64,000 nucleotides of DNA, from the NCBI RefSeq assembly GCF_011769525.1, contig NZ_CP050440.1:7798001-7862000 (forward strand), given 5' to 3'. Position 1 is the stretch's first letter, and each line of letters starts with the position of its first letter. This document shows, piece by piece, positions 50,222 to 63,011 of the stretch. Below the pieces are notes generated by a model, which was not told the DNA's origin, made no database searches, and was given only the letters and a program-made list of their open reading frames with translations. Made by a program: the position numbers and the translations under genes. The stretch is from Tolypothrix sp. PCC 7910. Its GTDB lineage: Bacteria > Cyanobacteriota > Cyanobacteriia > Cyanobacteriales > Nostocaceae.

Positions 50222-51944
50222 ATGTATATGCAGGACGATCATTCTTCTCAAATACCTGCAACTAAATCAAAAATTGCAGATTTAAGCAGCAATATTACCG
50301 AAACTCAAGTTATTGTTTCGGAACTTTCCGATGAAGCAAAGTTGAAAATGGAGGTGATCCAAAGCCTTCTAGAAGCAGGCGATCGCACTACATATGCTCA
50401 AAGGCTCAAGGAAGCAGCAGCCAAACTAGGAAAGTCAGTGCGAACAGTGCGGCGATTAGTTGATAAATGGGAACAGGAGGGACTAGTCGGACTGGCGCAA
50501 ACAGAACGAAATGATAAAGGAAAACATCGAGTTGATGAAGAATGGCAGGACTTTATCTTAAAAACCTACAAAGAAGGTAATAAGGGTAGTAAAAGAATGA
50601 CTCGTCAGCAGGTAGCTGTGAGAGTTAGAGCTAGAGCCGATGAATTAGGTATCAAATCTCCTTCTCACATGACTGTGTACCGAGTTCTGCAACCGTTAAT
50701 TGAGAAGCAAGAAAAAGCTAAGAGTATTCGCTCTCCTGGTTGGCGGGGGTCACGCTTATCAGTTAAAACCCGTGATGGAAAAGATTTAACAGTAGAGTAC
50801 AGTAATCAAGTTTGGCAGTGTGACCATACTCGTGTAGATGTTTTATTAGTAGATCAACAATGGGGAAATTTTAGGTCGCCCTTGGTTAACAACAGTTATT
50901 GATAGTTATTCTCGCTGCATCGTCGGTATTAATCTTGGTTATGACGCTCCAAGCTCTCAGGTAGTAGCTTTGGCAGTACGTCATGCAATATTGCTTTGGC
51001 AATATGGAGAAGAATATGAGCTTCATGAAGAATGGGGAACATTCGGTAAACCAGAACACTTTTACACTGATGGTGGTAAAGATTTTCGCTCCAATCATTT
51101 GCAACAGATAGGTGTGCAATTAGGGTTTGTTTGTCATTTACGCGATCGCCCTAGTGAAGGCGGTATTGTCGAGCGTCCTTTTAAGACATTTAACACCGAG
51201 TTATTCTCCACTTTTCCAGGATACACGGGGTCAAATGTACAAGAGCGACCAGAACAAGCAGAACAAGAAGCTAGTGTGACGTTGCGGCAACTAGAGCAAC
51301 GTTTAGTTGCCTACATTGTCAATAACTATAACCAACGAATAGATGCTCGCATGGGTGAGCAGACAAGATTTCAGCGTTGGGAATCTGGCTTGATAGTAGC
51401 TCCTGATGCGATCTCAGAAAGAGATTTAGATATCTGCTTAATGAAGCAAACACGCAGGATGATTCAAAGAGGGGGCTACTTACAATTTGAAAATTTAATG
51501 TATAGAGGTGAATATTTAGCAGGCTACGCTGGCGAAAGCGTTGTGCTGCGATATGACCCCAAAGACATCACTACTTTGTTGGTTTATTACCAAAAGGGTC
51601 ATAAAGAAGAGTTTTTAGCTCGTGCCTATGCTCAAGATTTGGAGACAGAACAATTATCTCTAGATGAGGCAAAAGCTATGAGTCGCAAGATTCGGCAAGC
51701 AGGGAAGATGATTAGCAATCGCTCAATGTTGGCAGAGGTACGCGATCGCGAAACATTTGTTACCCAAAAGAAAACCAAAAAGGAACGCCAAAAAGCAGAA
51801 CAGGCTGTAGTTCAAAAGGCTAAAAAACCTGTACCTGTTGAACCAGAGGAAGAAATTGAAGTGACATCTTTTGACAGCGAACCGGAATACCAAATGCCAG
51901 AAGTATTTGATTACGAACAAATGCGTGAAGATTACGGGTGGTAG
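50222..51944 (+). pseudogene. tnsB: Transposase TnsB (V-K CAST type), frameshifted
   Basis: DDE transposase of the Tn7/Mu-like type. N-terminal helix-turn-helix domains (YAQRLKEAAAKLGKSVRTVR), then the catalytic domain with first Asp in NQVWQCDHTRVDVLL, second in HFYTDGGKDFRS and Glu in DRPSEGGIVERPFKTF, and a basic C-terminus ending EYQMPEVFDYEQMREDYGW, the tail that contacts TnsC in related systems. At 50862-50865 a run of four G shifts the frame: with three G the sequence reads DQQWEILGRPWLTTVIDSYSRCI. So the protein is split after about 210 residues unless the shift is bypassed. Start ATG 50222 or 50228. Confidence 0.88.
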
Positions 51945-51948
51945 AAAT

Positions 51949-52785
51949 ATGACTTCAAAACAGGCTCAAGCAGTTGCCCAACAATTAGGTGATATTCCTG
52001 TCAATGATGAAAAAATACAAGCAGAAATTCAACGATTAAACCGTAAAAGTTTTATTCCCCTAGAACAAGTACAAATGCTCCATGATTGGTTAGATGCAAA
52101 ACGACAAGCACGGCAGTCTGGTCGTGTTTTAGGAGAGTCGAGAACTGGTAAAACAATGGGTTGTGATGCCTACAGGTTAAGGCATAAACCAAAACAAGAA
52201 TCAGGGAAACCGCCCAATGTACCTGTTGCTTATATCCAAATCCCTCAAGAGTGCGGTGCTAAAGAGTTGTTTGGAGTAATTATTGAGCATTTGAAGTATC
52301 AAATGACCAAGGGAACGGTAGCGGAGATTAGAGATAGAACCATGCGGGTTCTCAAAGGGTGTGGGGTGGAGATGCTGATCATTGATGAAGCTGATCGCTT
52401 TAAACCCAAAACTTTTGCTGAGGTACGGGATATTTTTGACAAGTTGGAAATAGCAGTGATTTTGGTAGGAACTGATCGTTTAGATGCAGTTATTAAGCGG
52501 GATGAACAAGTTTACAATCGTTTTCGAGCTTGTCATAGATTTGGTAAGTTTTCTGGGGAAGACTTTAAGCGAACAGTAGAAATTTGGGAAAAGAAGGTTT
52601 TGCAGTTACCAGTTGCTTCTAATCTTTCCGGCAAGACAATGTTGAAGACATTAGGTGAGGCAACAGGGGGTTATATTGGTTTGCTGGATATGATTTTGAG
52701 GGAATCAGCAATCCGGGCTTTGAAGAAAGGATTACAGAAGGTAGATTTGGAAACACTGAAGGAAGTAGCTGCGGAGTACAAATAA
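51949..52785 (+). CDS. tnsC: AAA+ regulator TnsC (V-K CAST type)
   Basis: 278 aa, the short form typical of type V-K transposons. Walker A GESRTGKT (62-69), Walker B EMLIIDEAD (141-149), sensor region VILVGTDRLDAVIKRDEQV and a C-terminal GYIGLLDMILRESAIRALKK. It forms filaments on DNA and links target selection to TnsB in known systems. Strong similarity to the remembered ShCAST TnsC (CGVEMLIIDEADR, GTDRLDAVIKRDEQV) fixes the start at ATG 51949, four bases after the tnsB stop. Gene intact. Confidence 0.93.
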   Translation: MTSKQAQAVAQQLGDIPVNDEKIQAEIQRLNRKSFIPLEQVQMLHDWLDAKRQARQSGRVLGESRTGKTMGCDAYRLRHKPKQESGKPPNVPVAYIQIPQECGAKELFGVIIEHLKYQMTKGTVAEIRDRTMRVLKGCGVEMLIIDEADRFKPKTFAEVRDIFDKLEIAVILVGTDRLDAVIKRDEQVYNRFRACHRFGKFSGEDFKRTVEIWEKKVLQLPVASNLSGKTMLKTLGEATGGYIGLLDMILRESAIRALKKGLQKVDLETLKEVAAEYK

Positions 52786-53288
52786 TGGAAGTTGCAGAAA
52801 TTCAACCTTGGCTGTTTCAGATAGCACCTTTAGAGGGAGAAAGTATAAGTCACTTTTTAGGACGCTTTCGACGGGCAAATGATTTAACACCTACTGGGTT
52901 AGGCAAAGCAGCAGGTATTGGGGGTGCGATCGCTCGTTGGGAAAAATTTCGGTTTAATCCTCCCCCTACCCCTCAGCAGTTGGAAGCATTAGCTATTGTG
53001 GTAGGGGTTGATACCGATAGGTTAAAGCAGATGTTACTACCTCTTGGTGTGGGCATGAAAATGGAACCAATTCGCTTATGCGCTGCCTGTTATGCCAAGT
53101 CACCTTGTCATAAAATTGAGTGGCAGTTGAAGGTGACACAAGGATGTGGGAGGCACAAATTAACTTTGTTGTCAGAATGTCCAAACTGTGGGTCAAGATT
53201 TAAGATGCCAGCATTGTGGGTGGATGGTTGGTGTCAGCGTTGTTTTCTGAATTTTTTTGAGATGACAAAGTATCAAAAGGCGATTTAA
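52785..53288 (+). CDS. tniQ: Target-selection protein TniQ (V-K CAST type)
   Basis: 167 aa, the minimal TniQ size found with Cas12k. PWLFQIAPLEGESISHFLGR, FRRANDLTPTGLGKAAGIGG and two zinc-binding cysteine/histidine clusters (LCAACYAKSPCHKIEW; CGRHKLTLLSECPNCGSRF; CQRC). The ATG overlaps the tnsC stop (TAATG), showing translational coupling. In complete systems cas12k follows; here it is missing. Confidence 0.93.
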   Translation: MEVAEIQPWLFQIAPLEGESISHFLGRFRRANDLTPTGLGKAAGIGGAIARWEKFRFNPPPTPQQLEALAIVVGVDTDRLKQMLLPLGVGMKMEPIRLCAACYAKSPCHKIEWQLKVTQGCGRHKLTLLSECPNCGSRFKMPALWVDGWCQRCFLNFFEMTKYQKAI

Positions 53289-56365: not shown

Positions 56366-59122
56366 ATGACAGAAGAAAACCGCAGCGTCAAAGTTGGAGG
56401 GAGTGCTGACAGCAGTGCCATTCAGACTGGTACTGGCAATACTGCTACTATTACCATCACTAATTACTATTATCGTGAAGATACAACAGTAGTACCGATT
56501 GAATCTACGGTTGCTGCTAATGAAAATCTTCCCTGTCCTTATCGCGGTTTGTTTCACTTTGGGCCCGATGACGCGGAGTTTTTCTTTGGACGTGAGATAT
56601 TTGTCGAAGAACTTTTTGCGGCGACTCAAAACCGCAATTTTATACCCGTGTTGGGTGCGTCGGGAAGCGGTAAATCTTCGGTGGTATTGGCGGGATTAGT
56701 GCCAAAGCTTCAAAATGAAGGTCACTGGTTATTTACTCACTTCCGTCCTGGTTCCGAGCCTTTCTATGCGCTGGCTTTGGCGCTAGTTCCCCTTTACACG
56801 CAAAATCTCGATCATACTGATAAGATCATCCAAGCTCGTAAGTTGTCACAAGCTCTGGGCGAGGGTGAAATTTTTCTTGCTGATGTATTGGCCCAGATTC
56901 ACCAAAACCACCCTACACATCGGGTGTTGCTAATTGCCGATCAATTTGAAGAAATTTACACTTTATGCGCCGATCATAAAGTTCGCCATAGTTTTCTAGA
57001 TAGTTTATTAGCCAGCTTTCCATCCTCTCCTCACCAGTCCCTATATAATCATGTGCTAGTTGCAACCATGCGGGCAGATTTCTTAGGAAATGCTCTGTTA
57101 TATCCCCCTTTTGGAGATGTATTGAAAACTGATATCAAGTTGAGGTCGATGAATCATGAAGAACTTTCACAGGTGATTGAAAAGCCTGCTGACAAGTTGG
57201 GGGTGAGATTTGAAGTGGGACTGGTGGAACGGATTTTAGATGATGTGGAAGATGAACCGGGGAATTTACCTCTTTTGGAATTTGCGTTAACTCAGTTGTG
57301 GCAGCAGCGCCAGGGTAAACTGTTAACCCATGCAGGTTATCAGCACATAGGGAAAGTACAAGGAGCATTGGCTCGTCATGCAGATCAGAATTATGGTAAG
57401 TTGAGCGCAACTGAAAAAGAACAGGTACGGCGCATTTTCATCCAATTAGTGCATCCGGGTGAAGGCACACAAGATACGCGACGACTGGCAACGAAGGCAG
57501 AATTAAGCGAAGCAACCTGGGGATTGGTGAAGCAGTTGGCGGATGCGCGATTAGTGGTTACTAGTCGTAATGCTGCCGAGCAAGAAACAGTGGAAGTTGT
57601 CCACGAGGCATTGATTCGTAATTGGGTCGAACTGCGACAATGGATGGATGCAGATCGTAGCTTTCGTGCTTGGCAAGAAAGGCTGCGGTTCGCAATGGAT
57701 CAATGGCAAAAAATGCAACGGGATGAAGGGGTATTGTTGCGGGGTGCAGTGTTAAAGGAAGCGGAAGCCAAGCTGAAGCAACGCCGAGAGGAACTGAGCA
57801 AGGGAGAGCAAGAATTCATTCAAGCTAGTTTAGCGCTGCGTCAACGTGGTAAGCAGCGAATTTACTATTTATTTGGGGGAGTTAGTAGTATCCTTTTACT
57901 GACGCTGGGAATTTGGGGTTGGTTGAATTATACAACTCCGGGGCAATTGACTCAAATTCGCTGGAAATTGACTGATGTGAGTCAAAAGGTAAACAGTCCT
58001 GAGTATCAATTAAAAGCGGTTTTCGCCTTTGCTAGGGATGAAAATTTTACTGAAGCCTTGAAACTTGCCAACCAAATTCAGTATTCCCAGTACAAAGTCT
58101 TTGCCTTAACAGCCATTGCCCAAGCCTATGGCAAGCTCAATCAAGCGCCAACTGCCGCTCCCTTGCTCGATAAAGCGATCTCCTCTGCCAACCAGATTCC
58201 GGATTCCGACTCCAAAGCCAATGCCTTAATAGCCATTGCCCAAGCCTATGGCAAGCTCAATCAAGCGCCAACTGCCGCTCCCTTGCTCGATAAAGCGATC
58301 GCCTCTGCCAACCAGATTCCGGATTCCCGTTACAAAGCCTATGCCTTAACAGCCATTGCCCAAGCCTATGGCAAGCTCAATCAAGCGCCAACTGCCGCTC
58401 CCTTGCTCAATAAAGCGATCTCCTCTGCCAACCAGATTCCGGATTCCTACAACAAAGCCTATGCCTTAATAGCCATTGCCCAAGCCTATGGCAAGCTCAA
58501 TCAAGCGCCAACTGCCGCTCCCTTGCTCGATAAAGCGATCTCCTCTGCCAACCAGATTCCGGATTCCCGTTACAAAGCCTATGCCTTAACAGCCATTGCC
58601 CAAGCCTATGGCAAGCTCAATCAAGCGCCAACTGCCGCTCCCTTGCTCGATAAAGTGATCGCCTCTGCCAACCAGATTCAGAAATCCGACGAAAAAGCCT
58701 ATGCCTTAAGAGCCATTGCCAAAGCCATTGGCCATCTCAACCAAGGGCAAACTGCCGCTCCCTTGCTCGATAAAGTGATCGCCTCTGCCAACCAGATTCA
58801 GGCACCCAACGAAAAAGCCATAGCCTTACATGCCATTGTCGAAGCCATTGGCCAGCTCAAGCAAGTGCTAACTGCCGCTCCCTTGCTCGATAAAGCGATC
58901 GCTTCTGCCAACCAGATTCAGAAATCCGACCTCAAAGCCTATGCCTTACAAACCATTGCCGAAGCCGCAGCGAAGCTGAAAAACTGGGGACAGGCACTAA
59001 AAGCCACAGAAAAATGCCCCAGTGACGATTGTCAGGTGGAGTCGCTGGCTAGGGTTTTAACGGTTCATGCCGAGCAGCAGCGCCCTGAGTTGAAGGAGGA
59101 GAAGGAGGAGGAGGAAGAGTGA
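56366..59122 (+). CDS. Membrane-anchored nSTAND NTPase with 40-residue repeats
   Basis: 918 aa. Residues 5-32 form a short Gly/Thr-rich beta-like motif (NRSVKVGGSADSSAIQTG, then NTATITI). Then PCPYRGLFHFGPDDAEFFFGRE, Walker A GASGSGKSS (97-105), Walker B HRVLLIADQFEEIYTL (185-200) and RLVVTSRN..VEVVHEALIRNW winged-helix part: the nSTAND1 order. A likely transmembrane helix lies at about 498-520 (YYLFGGVSSILLLTLGIWGW). Residues about 570-890 are seven full 40-residue helical repeats (AIAQAYGKLNQAPTAAPLLD), probably the sensor, and the C-terminus is Glu-rich. It lies 57 bp upstream of the CHAT gene on the same strand. NLR-like switch in signalling or anti-phage defence is inferred from the family. 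Confidence 0.8.
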   Translation: MTEENRSVKVGGSADSSAIQTGTGNTATITITNYYYREDTTVVPIESTVAANENLPCPYRGLFHFGPDDAEFFFGREIFVEELFAATQNRNFIPVLGASGSGKSSVVLAGLVPKLQNEGHWLFTHFRPGSEPFYALALALVPLYTQNLDHTDKIIQARKLSQALGEGEIFLADVLAQIHQNHPTHRVLLIADQFEEIYTLCADHKVRHSFLDSLLASFPSSPHQSLYNHVLVATMRADFLGNALLYPPFGDVLKTDIKLRSMNHEELSQVIEKPADKLGVRFEVGLVERILDDVEDEPGNLPLLEFALTQLWQQRQGKLLTHAGYQHIGKVQGALARHADQNYGKLSATEKEQVRRIFIQLVHPGEGTQDTRRLATKAELSEATWGLVKQLADARLVVTSRNAAEQETVEVVHEALIRNWVELRQWMDADRSFRAWQERLRFAMDQWQKMQRDEGVLLRGAVLKEAEAKLKQRREELSKGEQEFIQASLALRQRGKQRIYYLFGGVSSILLLTLGIWGWLNYTTPGQLTQIRWKLTDVSQKVNSPEYQLKAVFAFARDENFTEALKLANQIQYSQYKVFALTAIAQAYGKLNQAPTAAPLLDKAISSANQIPDSDSKANALIAIAQAYGKLNQAPTAAPLLDKAIASANQIPDSRYKAYALTAIAQAYGKLNQAPTAAPLLNKAISSANQIPDSYNKAYALIAIAQAYGKLNQAPTAAPLLDKAISSANQIPDSRYKAYALTAIAQAYGKLNQAPTAAPLLDKVIASANQIQKSDEKAYALRAIAKAIGHLNQGQTAAPLLDKVIASANQIQAPNEKAIALHAIVEAIGQLKQVLTAAPLLDKAIASANQIQKSDLKAYALQTIAEAAAKLKNWGQALKATEKCPSDDCQVESLARVLTVHAEQQRPELKEEKEEEEE
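58085..58985 (+). repeat. 120-bp tandem coding repeats in the nSTAND gene
   Basis: Exact 120-bp period. The first five full units are almost identical in DNA (shared CAAGCCTATGGCAAGCTCAA and AACTGCCGCTCCCTTGCTCG); the last two are diverged. Strong identity suggests recent expansion or homogenisation. In frame throughout. Confidence 0.93.
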
Positions 59123-59179
59123 ACTTTTTGCTCAAACAGCGATAATTAGCGAACTGATAAGTCAAAATTAAATAACACC

Positions 59180-60220
59180 ATGAAAAAAATCCTCATCCTC
59201 TCCGCCAACCCCAAAAACACAAGTAATCTGCGCCTAGATGAAGAGGTGCGGGAAATCAAAAACACACTGCAACTATGTCCCAATCGAGACGAATTTCAAA
59301 TCATCACAGAATCTGCGATACGAGTGGATGATTTAACCCGCTTCCTATCTCACCATCAACCAACAATTGTTCACTTTTCTGGACATGGTTCTGGTACTGA
59401 TGGATTAGCTTTAGAAGATAATTTTGGGCAGATGCAGCTTGTCAGTACCCAAGCCCTGGCAAAGCTATTTGATTTGTTCCAATCACAAATTGAGTGTGTC
59501 TTACTCAACGCCTGCTACAGCGAATCACAAGCCACAGCAATTCACCAATATATTGATTGCGTGGTAGGGATGAATCAAGCGATTGGGGATACAGCCGCAA
59601 TTAAGTTTAGTGTGGGATTTTATACTGCTTTGGGGGCTGGCAGGAATTATGAAGATTGTTTTCACATGGGCTGTACATCTATTGATTTGCAGGGAATTCC
59701 AGAGTATTTAACCCCTATGAGAAAAATTAGGCAGCGGCGTTATCAGACTGTACAGGCCACAAATCCAGTAACATCTAACAAGGATGATAGTATCAATAAT
59801 GATAATAAAGGCTGGCAAAACCGCTCAGTTTCTATTGTCGGTAATGTTCCTGGTAGCGCAATTCAAACAGGAGACAGCAACACTGCAAACATCAATTTTC
59901 AACAAGTCAGTTTACCTGCACCAGCAAGCGTCAACATAGAAACAGAACTCAATGCCTTACGTGAAATACTGGCAAAGTTAGAAACTTCAGACCGTCGTAA
60001 AATTGACAATGCTATTGCTGATGCCGAAGAAGAAATCAACAAACCACAACCAGATAAAAATGAAGTGGGTAAGGCGTTAGAACGAGCTTTTGACTATGCT
60101 AAGAAGGCTGAGGGATTTGCATCTGCGATTGAAAAACTTAAACCTCACCTAACTAAAACTGTGGGTTGGTTGGGTGAAAATTGGCACAAATTGCTAAGTC
60201 TGGTGAATTTAACAATTTGA
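59180..60220 (+). CDS. CHAT-domain (caspase-like) protease with shared motif
   Basis: 346 aa. N-terminal CHAT domain: KKILILSANPKNTSNLRLDE, catalytic His69 in TIVHFSGHGSG and catalytic Cys112 in CVLLNACYSESQA, then VVGMNQAIGDTAAIKFSVGF. Residues 214-240 (NRSVSIVGNVPGSAIQTG, then NTANINF) match the N-terminal motif of the upstream nSTAND protein. The C-terminal part is helical (RRKIDNAIADAEEEINKPQP; EVGKALERAFDYAKKAEGFA). Likely the protease effector of the nSTAND sensor, in one operon; substrate unknown. ATG 59180. Confidence 0.82.
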   Translation: MKKILILSANPKNTSNLRLDEEVREIKNTLQLCPNRDEFQIITESAIRVDDLTRFLSHHQPTIVHFSGHGSGTDGLALEDNFGQMQLVSTQALAKLFDLFQSQIECVLLNACYSESQATAIHQYIDCVVGMNQAIGDTAAIKFSVGFYTALGAGRNYEDCFHMGCTSIDLQGIPEYLTPMRKIRQRRYQTVQATNPVTSNKDDSINNDNKGWQNRSVSIVGNVPGSAIQTGDSNTANINFQQVSLPAPASVNIETELNALREILAKLETSDRRKIDNAIADAEEEINKPQPDKNEVGKALERAFDYAKKAEGFASAIEKLKPHLTKTVGWLGENWHKLLSLVNLTI

Positions 60221-60358: not shown

Positions 60359-61621
60359 CTACGCTGCTTCTAAATCTTCAGCAATCTCTAAAGCTAAAAC
60401 ATCCGGTGCTGGGAGGTTATCTGAATCTTCCAAACTTTCATCCCTCAGCCAAAAAATATCCAGACTGACTTTATCGCGTTGCATCAGTTCTTCATAGCTA
60501 AAGGCTCGAAACCTGTCTGTTTGAAAGCGTTCCTGGCGATTTTGAGCATTAAAGCATTGAATAAAGTCTTGCAAGTTGTCGTAGCGGAGGGGATTGGTTT
60601 TCAGGGTAAAGTGCTGATTGGTTCTAAAATCGTAAATCCAGAGTTTCTTAGTCCAGGGATCGGCGCTGGCGGGTTTACGATCAAGGAATAACACGTTAGC
60701 TTTGACACCTTGAGCATAGAATATACCTGTTGGCAGTCTCAGCAAGGTATGTACGTCGCATTCGTGCAGTAATTTCTTGCGGATAGTTTCACCAGCACCA
60801 CCTTCAAACAGGACGTTATCAGGAACGACAACCGCAGCTTTACCATTGATTTGCAGTAGGGTTTTGACGTGCTGGAGGAAGTTTAGCTGTTTGTTAGATG
60901 TGGTAGCCCAAAAGTCATCACGGCGATACACGACCTTTTCTTTGTCTGCTTTGCCATCATCATTGAAAACTGTGATGCTGCTTTTTTTACCGAAGGGTGG
61001 ATTTGTTAATACTAATTCAAAGCGATCGCCTGGATCTGCCATTAAGCTATCTTTAGCGTCAACAGGACTTTCATCACCAGCTATACCGTGTAAATACAGA
61101 TTCATCGCACATAGCCTTACTACCCCATCAGCGACATCAAATCCTTTAAAGGTTTGATTTTTCAGGAATTGCTTTTGAGCTTTATCAAGTTTGTAATTTT
61201 TGGTAGTGCAATCATTAGCAACCAAGAAAAAACCACCTGTACCGCAAGCAGGATCACAGATGCGTTGTCCTGGTTGGGGTTGCATGACTTCTACAATGGC
61301 TTTAATTAATGTCCTTGGCGTAAAATACTGACCTGCACCGCCTTTAACATCTTCGGCGTTCTTTTGCAGCAATCCTTCGTAAATTTCCCCTTTTACGTCG
61401 ATATCCAAACCAATCCAAGTTTCGGAGTTGATGAGTTCTACTAGTCGCTTGAGTTTGGCGGGGTCTTGAATTTTATTTTGCGATTTGCGGAAGATAACGC
61501 CCAAAAGTCCTTTTTCTTTACCCAGATTTTCTAAGGTGTGGCGGTACTGGGTTTCTAAAGCATCACCATCTTGCGATGGCGTTCCGCCCGCCGCAGGCAT
61601 CGCAGTGCCTCCCAGCTATAT
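60359..61621 (-). pseudogene. hsdM: Type I restriction-modification methylase HsdM, main part
   Basis: N6-adenine methyltransferase subunit. RICDPACGTGGFFLVANDCT (motif I), FELVLTNPPFGKKS (motif IV, NPPF), GGAGQYFTPRTLIKAIVEVM and KAAVVVPDNVLFEGGAGETI. The first about 60 residues are at 63012-63197, beyond an IS701-type insertion. A palindromic repeat (GATGCCTGCGGCGGGCGGAA, about 61572-61600) between SWEAL and QDGDALETQ additionally shifts the frame. The remaining frame starts inside this repeat (ATG 61600). After the TAG stop the frame continues ELFQSITENLEAKTVSEV, so the end may also be a nonsense mutation. No hsdS or hsdR is in the window. Confidence 0.85.
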
Positions 61622-63011
61622 CCCTGTTTTGTCACTCTAGGCAGAGGAAAAGTAGAAATCAGCATGAGTTAGGGAAATAAAAATTGAACTAGTTAGGTTA
61701 TAAATAATAGATTGAAGTTTAGAAAACCCCAAGGACAATTGGGGGATAGGAAAAACTGTTAACCAGGGATATATTAGGTTAAATAAGGTAAAAGGTTGAA
61801 TTATTAAACGGAGATTGTTAAGAATATTCTTCCAGCCTTTTTCACCGTTCCACCAGGGATGCGAAGCTAGCTTTGATGGAGATTTTGGCACAGAAGACTG
61901 CATTTGTTCAGAGTGGAGGCTAACCATTAAATAGCTGCTACATACAATCTCCCACCAGCGTTCAATATCCGGGTAGTGAGTCAGCCGATAATCTGCCCAG
62001 CCTAATTCATTTTTACTTTGCTTCAAGCCATACTCAACCCAAGTTCTTAATCCATAAAAGTTGCCTACATCTCTTGGTGTAATGTCTGGATACTTACTCA
62101 TGACATACCAAGTAGTGTTATCAGGTAAATTCTCACTATCTGTGGTAATCTGCCAATATCTTTTTTCTTGTCGTTTGCCGTGAATTATTTCTCTAATAAA
62201 TCGATTTTCACTTCTAAGGTCTGAAAATACTCTTTTAAACTTGTGCCACTTTAAATATTGAGTATGTTGTCTCGGAAGTAAATCCACATCATGGTTTTAG
62301 CGAATCGCCACTATATAGTTTAGATTCATTTCATCTAACACAGATATGAAGTTAGTTCCACTTTCTCCATACAAACTGTCTGCCAGTACTAAGTTAAATT
62401 TAAAGCCCATTGACTTGAGCTTTCGCATTAGAATTGCTGCTATTTGTGGCTTGGTTAGGTATTTATCTTCTGGCTTTAATCTTTCACGAGGCTTATATAT
62501 TTCAAATAGCAGTGGAAAAGTCATACCGCAGAATACGCCATACGCTGTTACTGCCACAATTCCATTCTCTACTTTTCCTAAGTTTCCTATATATTGCCGT
62601 TTTACGTAATCTGTTTTATTCCCTTTCTTTCTGTCTCCTGTTTCATCAATAATTAGAATGATTGGTCTGCCTTTTAGCACTTGTAAAATTAGTTCTAATC
62701 GCAACACTCTGAACTTTTCTATATTCCAAGGTGATGTAGTTAAAAAATGATGCAACCCTTGCTGGTTATCTAATCCTACAATTTTTGCTATTACTGCAAC
62801 GGGTTTTCCGTTTTAGCTCAGAAACACAGCCTACATGAAGATATTTAAAAGCCTCAAAACTCCTAACATCTGGAAACAGGCTTTTATACCACTGGCAATA
62901 TTCGTCCACAAATTTGACTGTAGGTGCGGCTGGACGGGGCTGTACCATACTCTGTGTCTTGGTTCTAGCGTTTTTACATTATTATACTACTGCCAGAGTG
63001 ACAAAACAGGG
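61622..63011 (-). mobile_element. IS701-family insertion sequence, copy 3 (1390 bp), in hsdM
   Basis: Ends CCCTGTTTTGTCACT and mirror; flanked by ATAT (61618-61621, 63012-63015). Removing the element and one ATAT restores hsdM (DPKY-SWEAL). Same size as copies 1 and 2 but clearly diverged in sequence. Confidence 0.92.
61637..62948 (-). pseudogene. IS701-family transposase, inactivated
   Basis: Related to the intact copies but broken: a frameshift near 62800-62815 (ELKRKT-RCSNSKN instead of AVIAKIVGLDNQQG) and a TAA in VAIR-stop-NHDVDLLPRQ at about 62298. DETGDRKKG, ADSLYGESG and WVEYGLKQSKNELGWAD remain readable. Starts at ATG 62948 or upstream. Confidence 0.88.

Follow-up and report, generated by a model that had tools for sequence, protein, structure and literature searches.

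Why does an NTPase switch share a short sequence motif with the protease encoded directly behind it? This question is raised by a two-gene locus of the cyanobacterium Tolypothrix sp. PCC 7910, located in a stretch of 64,000 nucleotides (contig NZ_CP050440.1, positions 7,798,001 to 7,862,000 of the forward strand) that was analysed as a whole and is referred to below as the window. The first gene encodes an NLR-like nSTAND1 NTPase (the switch); the second, 57 bp downstream and also on the plus strand, encodes a CHAT protease that carries an additional domain of five predicted helices at its C-terminus. The shared motif, termed motif A or the tag, leads the switch and recurs within the protease. 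We consider it probable that the pair constitutes a two-gene NLR signalosome, in which the clustered switch would nucleate tag-tag assembly and thereby activate the clustered protease.

The two copies of motif A, NRSVKVGGSADSSAIQTGTGNTATITI in the switch and NRSVSIVGNVPGSAIQTGDSNTANINF in the protease, are identical at 15 of 27 residues. The same codon is used at 4 of these 15 residues, and third codon positions agree at 8 of 27, which is near chance; the likeness is therefore held at the protein level and not by recent DNA copying. The score of 73 between the switch leader and the protease was reached by none of 20,000 shuffled leaders (maximum 59), and the best score among the 74 other open reading frames (ORFs) of the window was 38. 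A profile built from 23 rows (A5) recovered both copies from the 8.76-Mb genome with the E values listed in Table 1, the next match following at E 0.21. Across 386 cyanobacterial genomes, for some of which scoring covered a subset of the first-look candidates, this profile yielded at least 14 matches at E <= 1e-3 in at least eight genomes, with a second copy no more than 8 kb away in seven of the eight (E 0.0056 in G262). Five of these paired genomes (G000, G091, G376, G357 and G262) had been found earlier in the analysis and two (G060 and G336) were new, while the eighth matching genome, G187, contains a single weak match in an unrelated-looking gene. With two matches in its own genome and a second copy nearby in seven of eight genomes, the motif is not the generic low-complexity sequence that the initial annotation had named as a possible objection. 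Its shortness and its high content of G, S, T and N are what a functionless product of recent DNA duplication or low-complexity drift might show; nonetheless, the near-chance third positions, the mere two genome matches and the tracking of partners by tags described below render that explanation highly improbable. In the two new genomes the motif was seen in other company: at L129 (G060) one gene each of the caspase (Peptidase_C14), NACHT and EAD10 types contains matches, and at L130 (G336) matches fall in a caspase gene and in one that reaches EAD10 below threshold, beside an AAA gene that by eye contains a similar stretch. Several of the motif-A-like sequences at these loci adjoin EAD10-type helices.

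Scanning GTDB contigs for the motif together with the C-terminal domain identified 46 loci, which are non-independent samples; 43 are cyanobacterial by title, and one each comes from Pirellulaceae, Syntrophobacteraceae and Rhodospira bins. A pattern script located a motif-led NTPase within 8 kb at 33 of the 46, or at 32 after L061 was set aside because its NTPase has its own partner. Counted from the table of loci, a tagged NTPase is present at 25 of the 31 loci with both flanks of at least 4.5 kb, and among the remaining six, L035, L071 and L076 look degraded. The co-occurrence for which the initial annotation had proposed a search is thus found, and switch and effector occur in both gene orders. 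Three further tagged switches (L085, L090 and L097) proved to have matching neighbours that are short or fragmentary. A search with the NTPase region, scoring up to nine candidates per genome, gave at least 53 matches in 33 of the 386 genomes; many of the weaker matches have long N-terminal regions, which in L100, L104, L106 and L108 contain the CHAT signature. In these four proteins CHAT is fused ahead of nSTAND1, so that a tag combined with a stand-alone effector substitutes for the fused one. Several individual loci were also noted. L027 (2401-7693) holds a close relative of the pair in which a transposase-like ORF interrupts the switch gene and the CHAT gene is open. L169 (6000-7112), located on a plasmid of Tolypothrix sp. 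PCC 7601 that is mobilizable, encodes a CHAT effector with two tandem tags, which adjoins a 523-aa nSTAND-type NTPase devoid of repeats. In the Pirellulaceae bin, a third motif-A gene, with a DUF4062 domain, lies downstream of the tagged effector and NTPase (L069, 12844-14115).

Tags differ in step with their partners. For 41 pairs hand-assembled from neighbouring genes (29 with motif A and 12 with other tags), the summed leader-effector score was 2532, against a mean of 1732 and a maximum of 2064 over 20,000 re-pairings. Left out of this set were L027, as a near copy of the window pair with a broken NLR; other near copies (L080 of L079, L083-L085 of L081); L028-L030, which are the same records as L054, L059 and L063; L040, whose tag matches across two intervening genes; L075 (no anchor) and L078 (effector cut by the contig end); L090 and L097, whose partners were found later; L095 and L099, tagged switches with no matching neighbour; L091 (leader without a clear tag) and L093 (for which the rule yielded no leader); L096, L098 and L100, whose N-termini are long or fused; and the second NLR copies in L051 and L067. 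L061 enters solely through its other gene pair, L061b. Among the leaders with other tags, the cognate effector was the best within that set for 10 of 12, the misses being L086 (67, against 69 for a same-tag sister) and L032 (no clear match); permutation was also significant for the 29 motif-A pairs. Furthermore, on a rapid phylogeny of 45 STAND domains, with SH-aLRT (Shimodaira-Hasegawa-like approximate likelihood ratio test) support only and long branches flagged, the motif-A label requires at least five changes, two of them forced by starred branches. The STAND domain of L031 is 80% identical to that of the window switch and carries a different tag, which is matched by its own CHAT neighbour, likewise of a different type.

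The strongest evidence that tags track partners is exchange, to which the tree and L031 belong and of which L082 and L086 are the clean case. The STAND domains of these two loci are 97% identical, whereas their leaders are unrelated (score 17, against 187 for self-comparison). A match to each leader is found at the C-terminal end of the Bell-like protein encoded beside it (scores 54 and 67) and not in that of the other locus (19 and 19), the name Bell-like being based on layout, a hydrophobic N-terminus, a C-terminal tag and a sub-threshold HetE-N match. In a BLASTN comparison the two loci align at 91% identity as far as roughly the first 120 bp of the Bell-like gene, and alignment resumes at 94% some 10 codons ahead of the STAND anchor and continues from there. 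The intervening block of about 420 bp in L082 and 394 bp in L086 does not align; it comprises the remainder of the effector including its tag, the spacer and the tag of the switch. Once their last 45 residues are removed, the two Bell-like proteins retain 57% identity over 81 residues, so the block is most readily explained as a replacement by that of a relative, and fast divergence of the block alone seems less likely. Both loci have WD40-type sensor repeats, which give many mutual alignments at about 88-92% DNA identity. The initial annotation had taken the shared motif for a homotypic adaptor, a proposal that gains strength from these cases, in which motif differences between close switches are mirrored in the partner gene.

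The switch belongs to nSTAND1 by its PF20703 match and its P-loop, and its C-terminal repeats match TPR_12 (E 2e-14). Together with the 120-bp repeat units (Table 1), these matches bear out its first description as an nSTAND NTPase with a repeat sensor. It had also been called membrane-anchored. A single strongly hydrophobic 19-mer is indeed present (aa 502-520, mean Kyte-Doolittle 1.74), and a 19-mer of at least 1.6 occurs at about aa 430-660 in 30 of 34 paired NTPases of at least 700 aa; on hydropathy, membrane anchoring is regarded as plausible. In PADLOC 2.0.0, the sole match of the switch was mad3 (E 0.039), and no system-specific anti-phage model matched it. Promoter and terminator predictions were no better than chance.

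Table 1. Features of the switch-protease pair, in window coordinates.
Feature	Position	Strand	Basis
nSTAND1 NTPase, NLR-like switch, 918 aa	56366..59122	+	ORF; PF20703 E 1e-120
Motif A (tag), switch side, N-terminal leader, aa 5-34	56378..56467	+	Profile A5 E 8.4e-13; shuffle test
nSTAND1 domain PF20703, aa 58-454, P-loop GASGSGKSS	56537..57727	+	Pfam; sequence
Predicted membrane helix of the switch, about aa 499-520	57860..57925	+	Hydropathy only
Sensor repeats of the switch: TPR-like 120-bp unit (40 aa) in 7.5 copies with 89% matches	58066..58966	+	
CHAT caspase-fold protease with motif A and five-helix C-terminal domain, 346 aa	59180..60220	+	ORF, Pfam, AlphaFold2
CHAT domain, aa 1-184, with His69 and Cys112	59180..59731	+	Pfam, predicted fold, fold match, signatures
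Linker, aa 185-249, largely disordered by prediction, with a basic patch close to its start; contains motif A	59732..59926	+	
Motif A (tag), effector side, aa 214-243	59819..59908	+	Profile A5 E 2.7e-15
Five-helix C-terminal domain	59927..60217	+	No near-cut-off Pfam/NCBIfam match; no PDB fold match at E <= 0.001

In the downstream protein, PF12770 matches aa 7-158 (E 1e-10) and the His/Cys dyad is intact, with His69 in HFSGHG and Cys112 in LNACYS, confirming a CHAT protease at the stated spacing from the NTPase. Its best PADLOC match is the model 'chat' (9e-17), and its CHAT part matches the fold of the activated SAVED-CHAT filament (8tl0, E 5.6e-10), with separases and caspases weaker. Modelling with AlphaFold2 on 33 relatives gave a mean predicted local distance difference test (pLDDT) score of 74 and a predicted template modelling (pTM) score of 0.56; pLDDT falls below 50 over aa 185-239, a stretch that includes most of motif A. 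The C-terminal domain modelled alone forms five helices (pLDDT 94, pTM 0.85), for which the best match in a PDB fold search was E 0.64 and the Pfam and NCBIfam matches all lie below cut-offs. The motif is therefore present in both proteins as initially annotated, although its supposed location in the middle of the protease has to be corrected to a predicted disordered linker after CHAT, with the five-helix domain beyond.

This architecture raises the question of which part acts. CHAT is a dispensable part within the family of proteins that combine the tag with the C-terminal domain: relatives at L063, L065, L069 and L072 consist of the motif and this domain in about 140-150 aa, and in L066 pentapeptide repeats stand in place of CHAT. 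The actual executioner could thus be the five-helix domain, a Bell in mirror image with the tag first and the most hydrophobic helix last, and CHAT an optional accessory that perhaps cuts its own linker at the basic patch so as to release the tag together with the helices. We rate this as somewhat unlikely. The CHAT-less loci L063, L069, L072 and L075 do combine tag, domain and a neighbouring tagged NTPase, whereas no tagged NTPase is in view at L065 (with just 2.6 kb downstream), L071 and L073. A basic patch, defined as a run of about 10 residues with at least 4 K/R, lies behind CHAT in 29 of the 30 stand-alone effectors where it could be located, as opposed to none of five CHATs in one frame with a P-loop; such a patch would suit self-cleavage and also other roles. 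Nevertheless, it appears as well in 2 of 11 other CHATs (as read from a list of 14, less the motif-A effectors L057, L067 and L077). The C-terminal domain profile of effectors L079, L032, L094, L088 and L089 aligns with that of the protease (94.5% probability, 52 columns), and the terminal stretch of these effectors and of L061b is more hydrophobic (mean 1.2-1.6), whereas that of the window protein is only mildly so (0.54) and weakly amphipathic. Moreover, His and Cys signatures are both retained in all 29 CHAT effectors longer than 300 aa, members having been chosen partly by the HxxGHG signature, so protease activity appears to be under selection.

STAND proteins oligomerise on sensing. In the signalosome that we favour, the nSTAND1 switch would accordingly sense a trigger through its C-terminal repeats and oligomerise, gathering its N-terminal motifs. 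The gathered motifs would nucleate a homotypic beta-type assembly, most likely amyloid-like, and recruit the CHAT protein through the same motif in its linker; crowding would then activate the caspase-fold protease, the five-helix domain or both, resulting in defence or cell death. CHAT proteases can act in assemblies, as in the 8tl0 filament. The amyloid nature, order of events, trigger, substrate and outcome are inferred, and so is an immune or death role of the pair. An alternative, possible though improbable, is that motif A is a homotypic docking element of a non-amyloid kind, such as a finite beta-solenoid or a beta-augmentation pair, resembling an EAD and activating CHAT through proximity. 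EADs are described as homotypic adaptors, EAD10 being mixed alpha and beta (PMC7159879, in the passages on these domains), and the EAD10-type genes of L129 and L130 carry motif-A-like sequences. Against docking, the disordered linker setting and the G/N-rich two-strand pattern fit amyloid better, and profile comparison with classical EAD10 alone fails. In addition, sister tags of the same NTPase lineage (L086, L087 and L092; FQGEVKGAQVGDHN) resemble the Frankia BASS3 peptide VDLRDAKGVQVGDGNVQINRF, which aggregates in an amyloid-like manner according to the part of PMC8086366 that reports it.

Several observations weigh against the proposed signalosome. The C-terminal domain occurs in L066 and L073 with no tagged NTPase in view, and the tagged switches L095 and L099 have no matching neighbour in 13 kb (best scores 30 and 40). 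Within motif A, the cognate effector ranks top among 29 for just 3 of the 29 switches, and a partial Mantel test with STAND and C-terminal distances removed gave r 0.17 (p 0.049), so most of the signal within motif-A pairs may be common descent; fine-scale co-evolution of these pairs is weak. The clean tag exchange occurs in Bell-like pairs, not in the CHAT pair. Finally, motif A matches a set of seven BASS3-like peptides weakly (profile probability 19%), and its profile alone retrieved no RHIM chain from the PDB at E <= 10.

The surroundings of the pair were also inspected. Upstream (50222-53288), two consecutive ORFs, by eye a split transposase, precede TniB and TniQ genes (Pfam) and look like a Tn7-like or CAST-type remnant; the earlier designation as a CAST remnant agrees with these genes, no search having been made for Cas12k. 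Downstream (60359-62755), the presumed restriction gene is a type I methyltransferase gene split by an insertion (cf. L033). Its pieces correspond to aa 1-62 and aa 69-492 in an intact relative and are separated by about 1.4 kb, and the inserted ORFs are transposase-like by eye.

Judging from related gene pairs, tags may specify the death or defence protein that a given sensor activates. A bolder version, which we hold to be doubtful, is that cyanobacterial NLR tags are exchangeable address labels: tag and partner would be replaced as one cassette, rewiring a switch lineage between pore-type (Bell) and caspase-type effectors, and in the caspase branch the crowded protease would cut its own basic linker, freeing a tag-bearing five-helix executioner. 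If true, an amyloid-like necrosome would here activate a caspase of prokaryotes. The CHAT branch would connect the activation of caspases in bacteria with short tags that self-assemble. The natural exchange at L082 and L086 makes tag specificity directly testable, and a CHAT relative is available in a culture strain through the plasmid of Tolypothrix sp. PCC 7601.

How, then, does the pair relate to known systems? The first reading of the locus overlooked both that it is of a described kind, that of BASS systems and the EAD principle, and that its extra C-terminal domain is also found without CHAT. Two-gene NLR-effector clusters with shared amyloid motifs BASS1-10 are described mainly from actinobacteria and cyanobacteria, with CHAT and TIR among the effectors, in passages of a 2021 review (PMC7889193), according to which exploration of what this signalling leads to in filamentous bacteria lay ahead. 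Compared with BASS systems (Dyrka et al. 2020) as portrayed in parts of PMC7889193, PMC8086366 and PMC12261475, the window pair is alike in being cyanobacterial, in its adjacent NLR and effector with a shared motif, in the motif position at the NLR N-terminus and in having a CHAT effector. It differs in the effector, where the BASS motif is C-terminal and motif A is followed by a folded domain. For EADs (Kaur et al. 2020/2021), the relevant passages of PMC7159879 and PMC8195603 describe small domains on a core NTPase and a neighbouring effector that recruit through shared copies, those of neighbours being most alike. The window pair likewise has a small element on both proteins, but no helical part. 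Within the filters of HMMER, Pfam searches with the motif pieces gave no match to any family, EADs among them, at E values up to 10, and a PF19954 (EAD10) search of 194 genomes gave no match in G000. Profile comparison of motif A with 11 classical EAD10 rows found no match, and a probability of 67% was obtained once four intermediate rows were added; identity with EAD10 was consequently rejected.

In the fungal HET-S/NWD2 and HELLP/PP systems and the mammalian RHIM necrosome, a sensor tag templates an effector tag, as proposed here, whereas the window effector is a caspase-fold protease. The RHIM core is (I/V)Q(I/V/L/C)G. Both window proteins have IQTG at this place, and their relatives vary around I-[IQT]-[TSP]-G. 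When window motifs were combined with BASS3-like sister tags (profile A4, 7 of 9 rows BASS3-like), two RIPK1 chains ranked first in the PDB at a non-significant E of 0.2. With its core off-definition, no RHIM match by its own profile and just this value from the mixed one, membership in RHIM was rejected. Because the RHIM and EAD10 tests failed, the pair is filed, on its sequence features, as a putative variant of tag-matched NLR systems, of the BASS kind or EAD principle. Among the titles and abstract openings surveyed, which did not cover Dyrka et al. 2020, none concerned a CHAT-tag-helix architecture or the exchange of tag cassettes. SAVED-CHAT relies on nucleotide signalling; its filament (8tl0) has the CHAT fold in common with the window protein and holds the protease in a filamentous assembly, but uses a SAVED sensor where the window pair uses an NLR and a tag. 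The one-chain CHAT-nSTAND1 proteins unite the same effector and switch domains, though fused, so that a tag is unneeded. What sets this locus apart from those systems is a tag set in a predicted disordered linker before a five-helix domain, a combination of tag and domain that also exists without CHAT.

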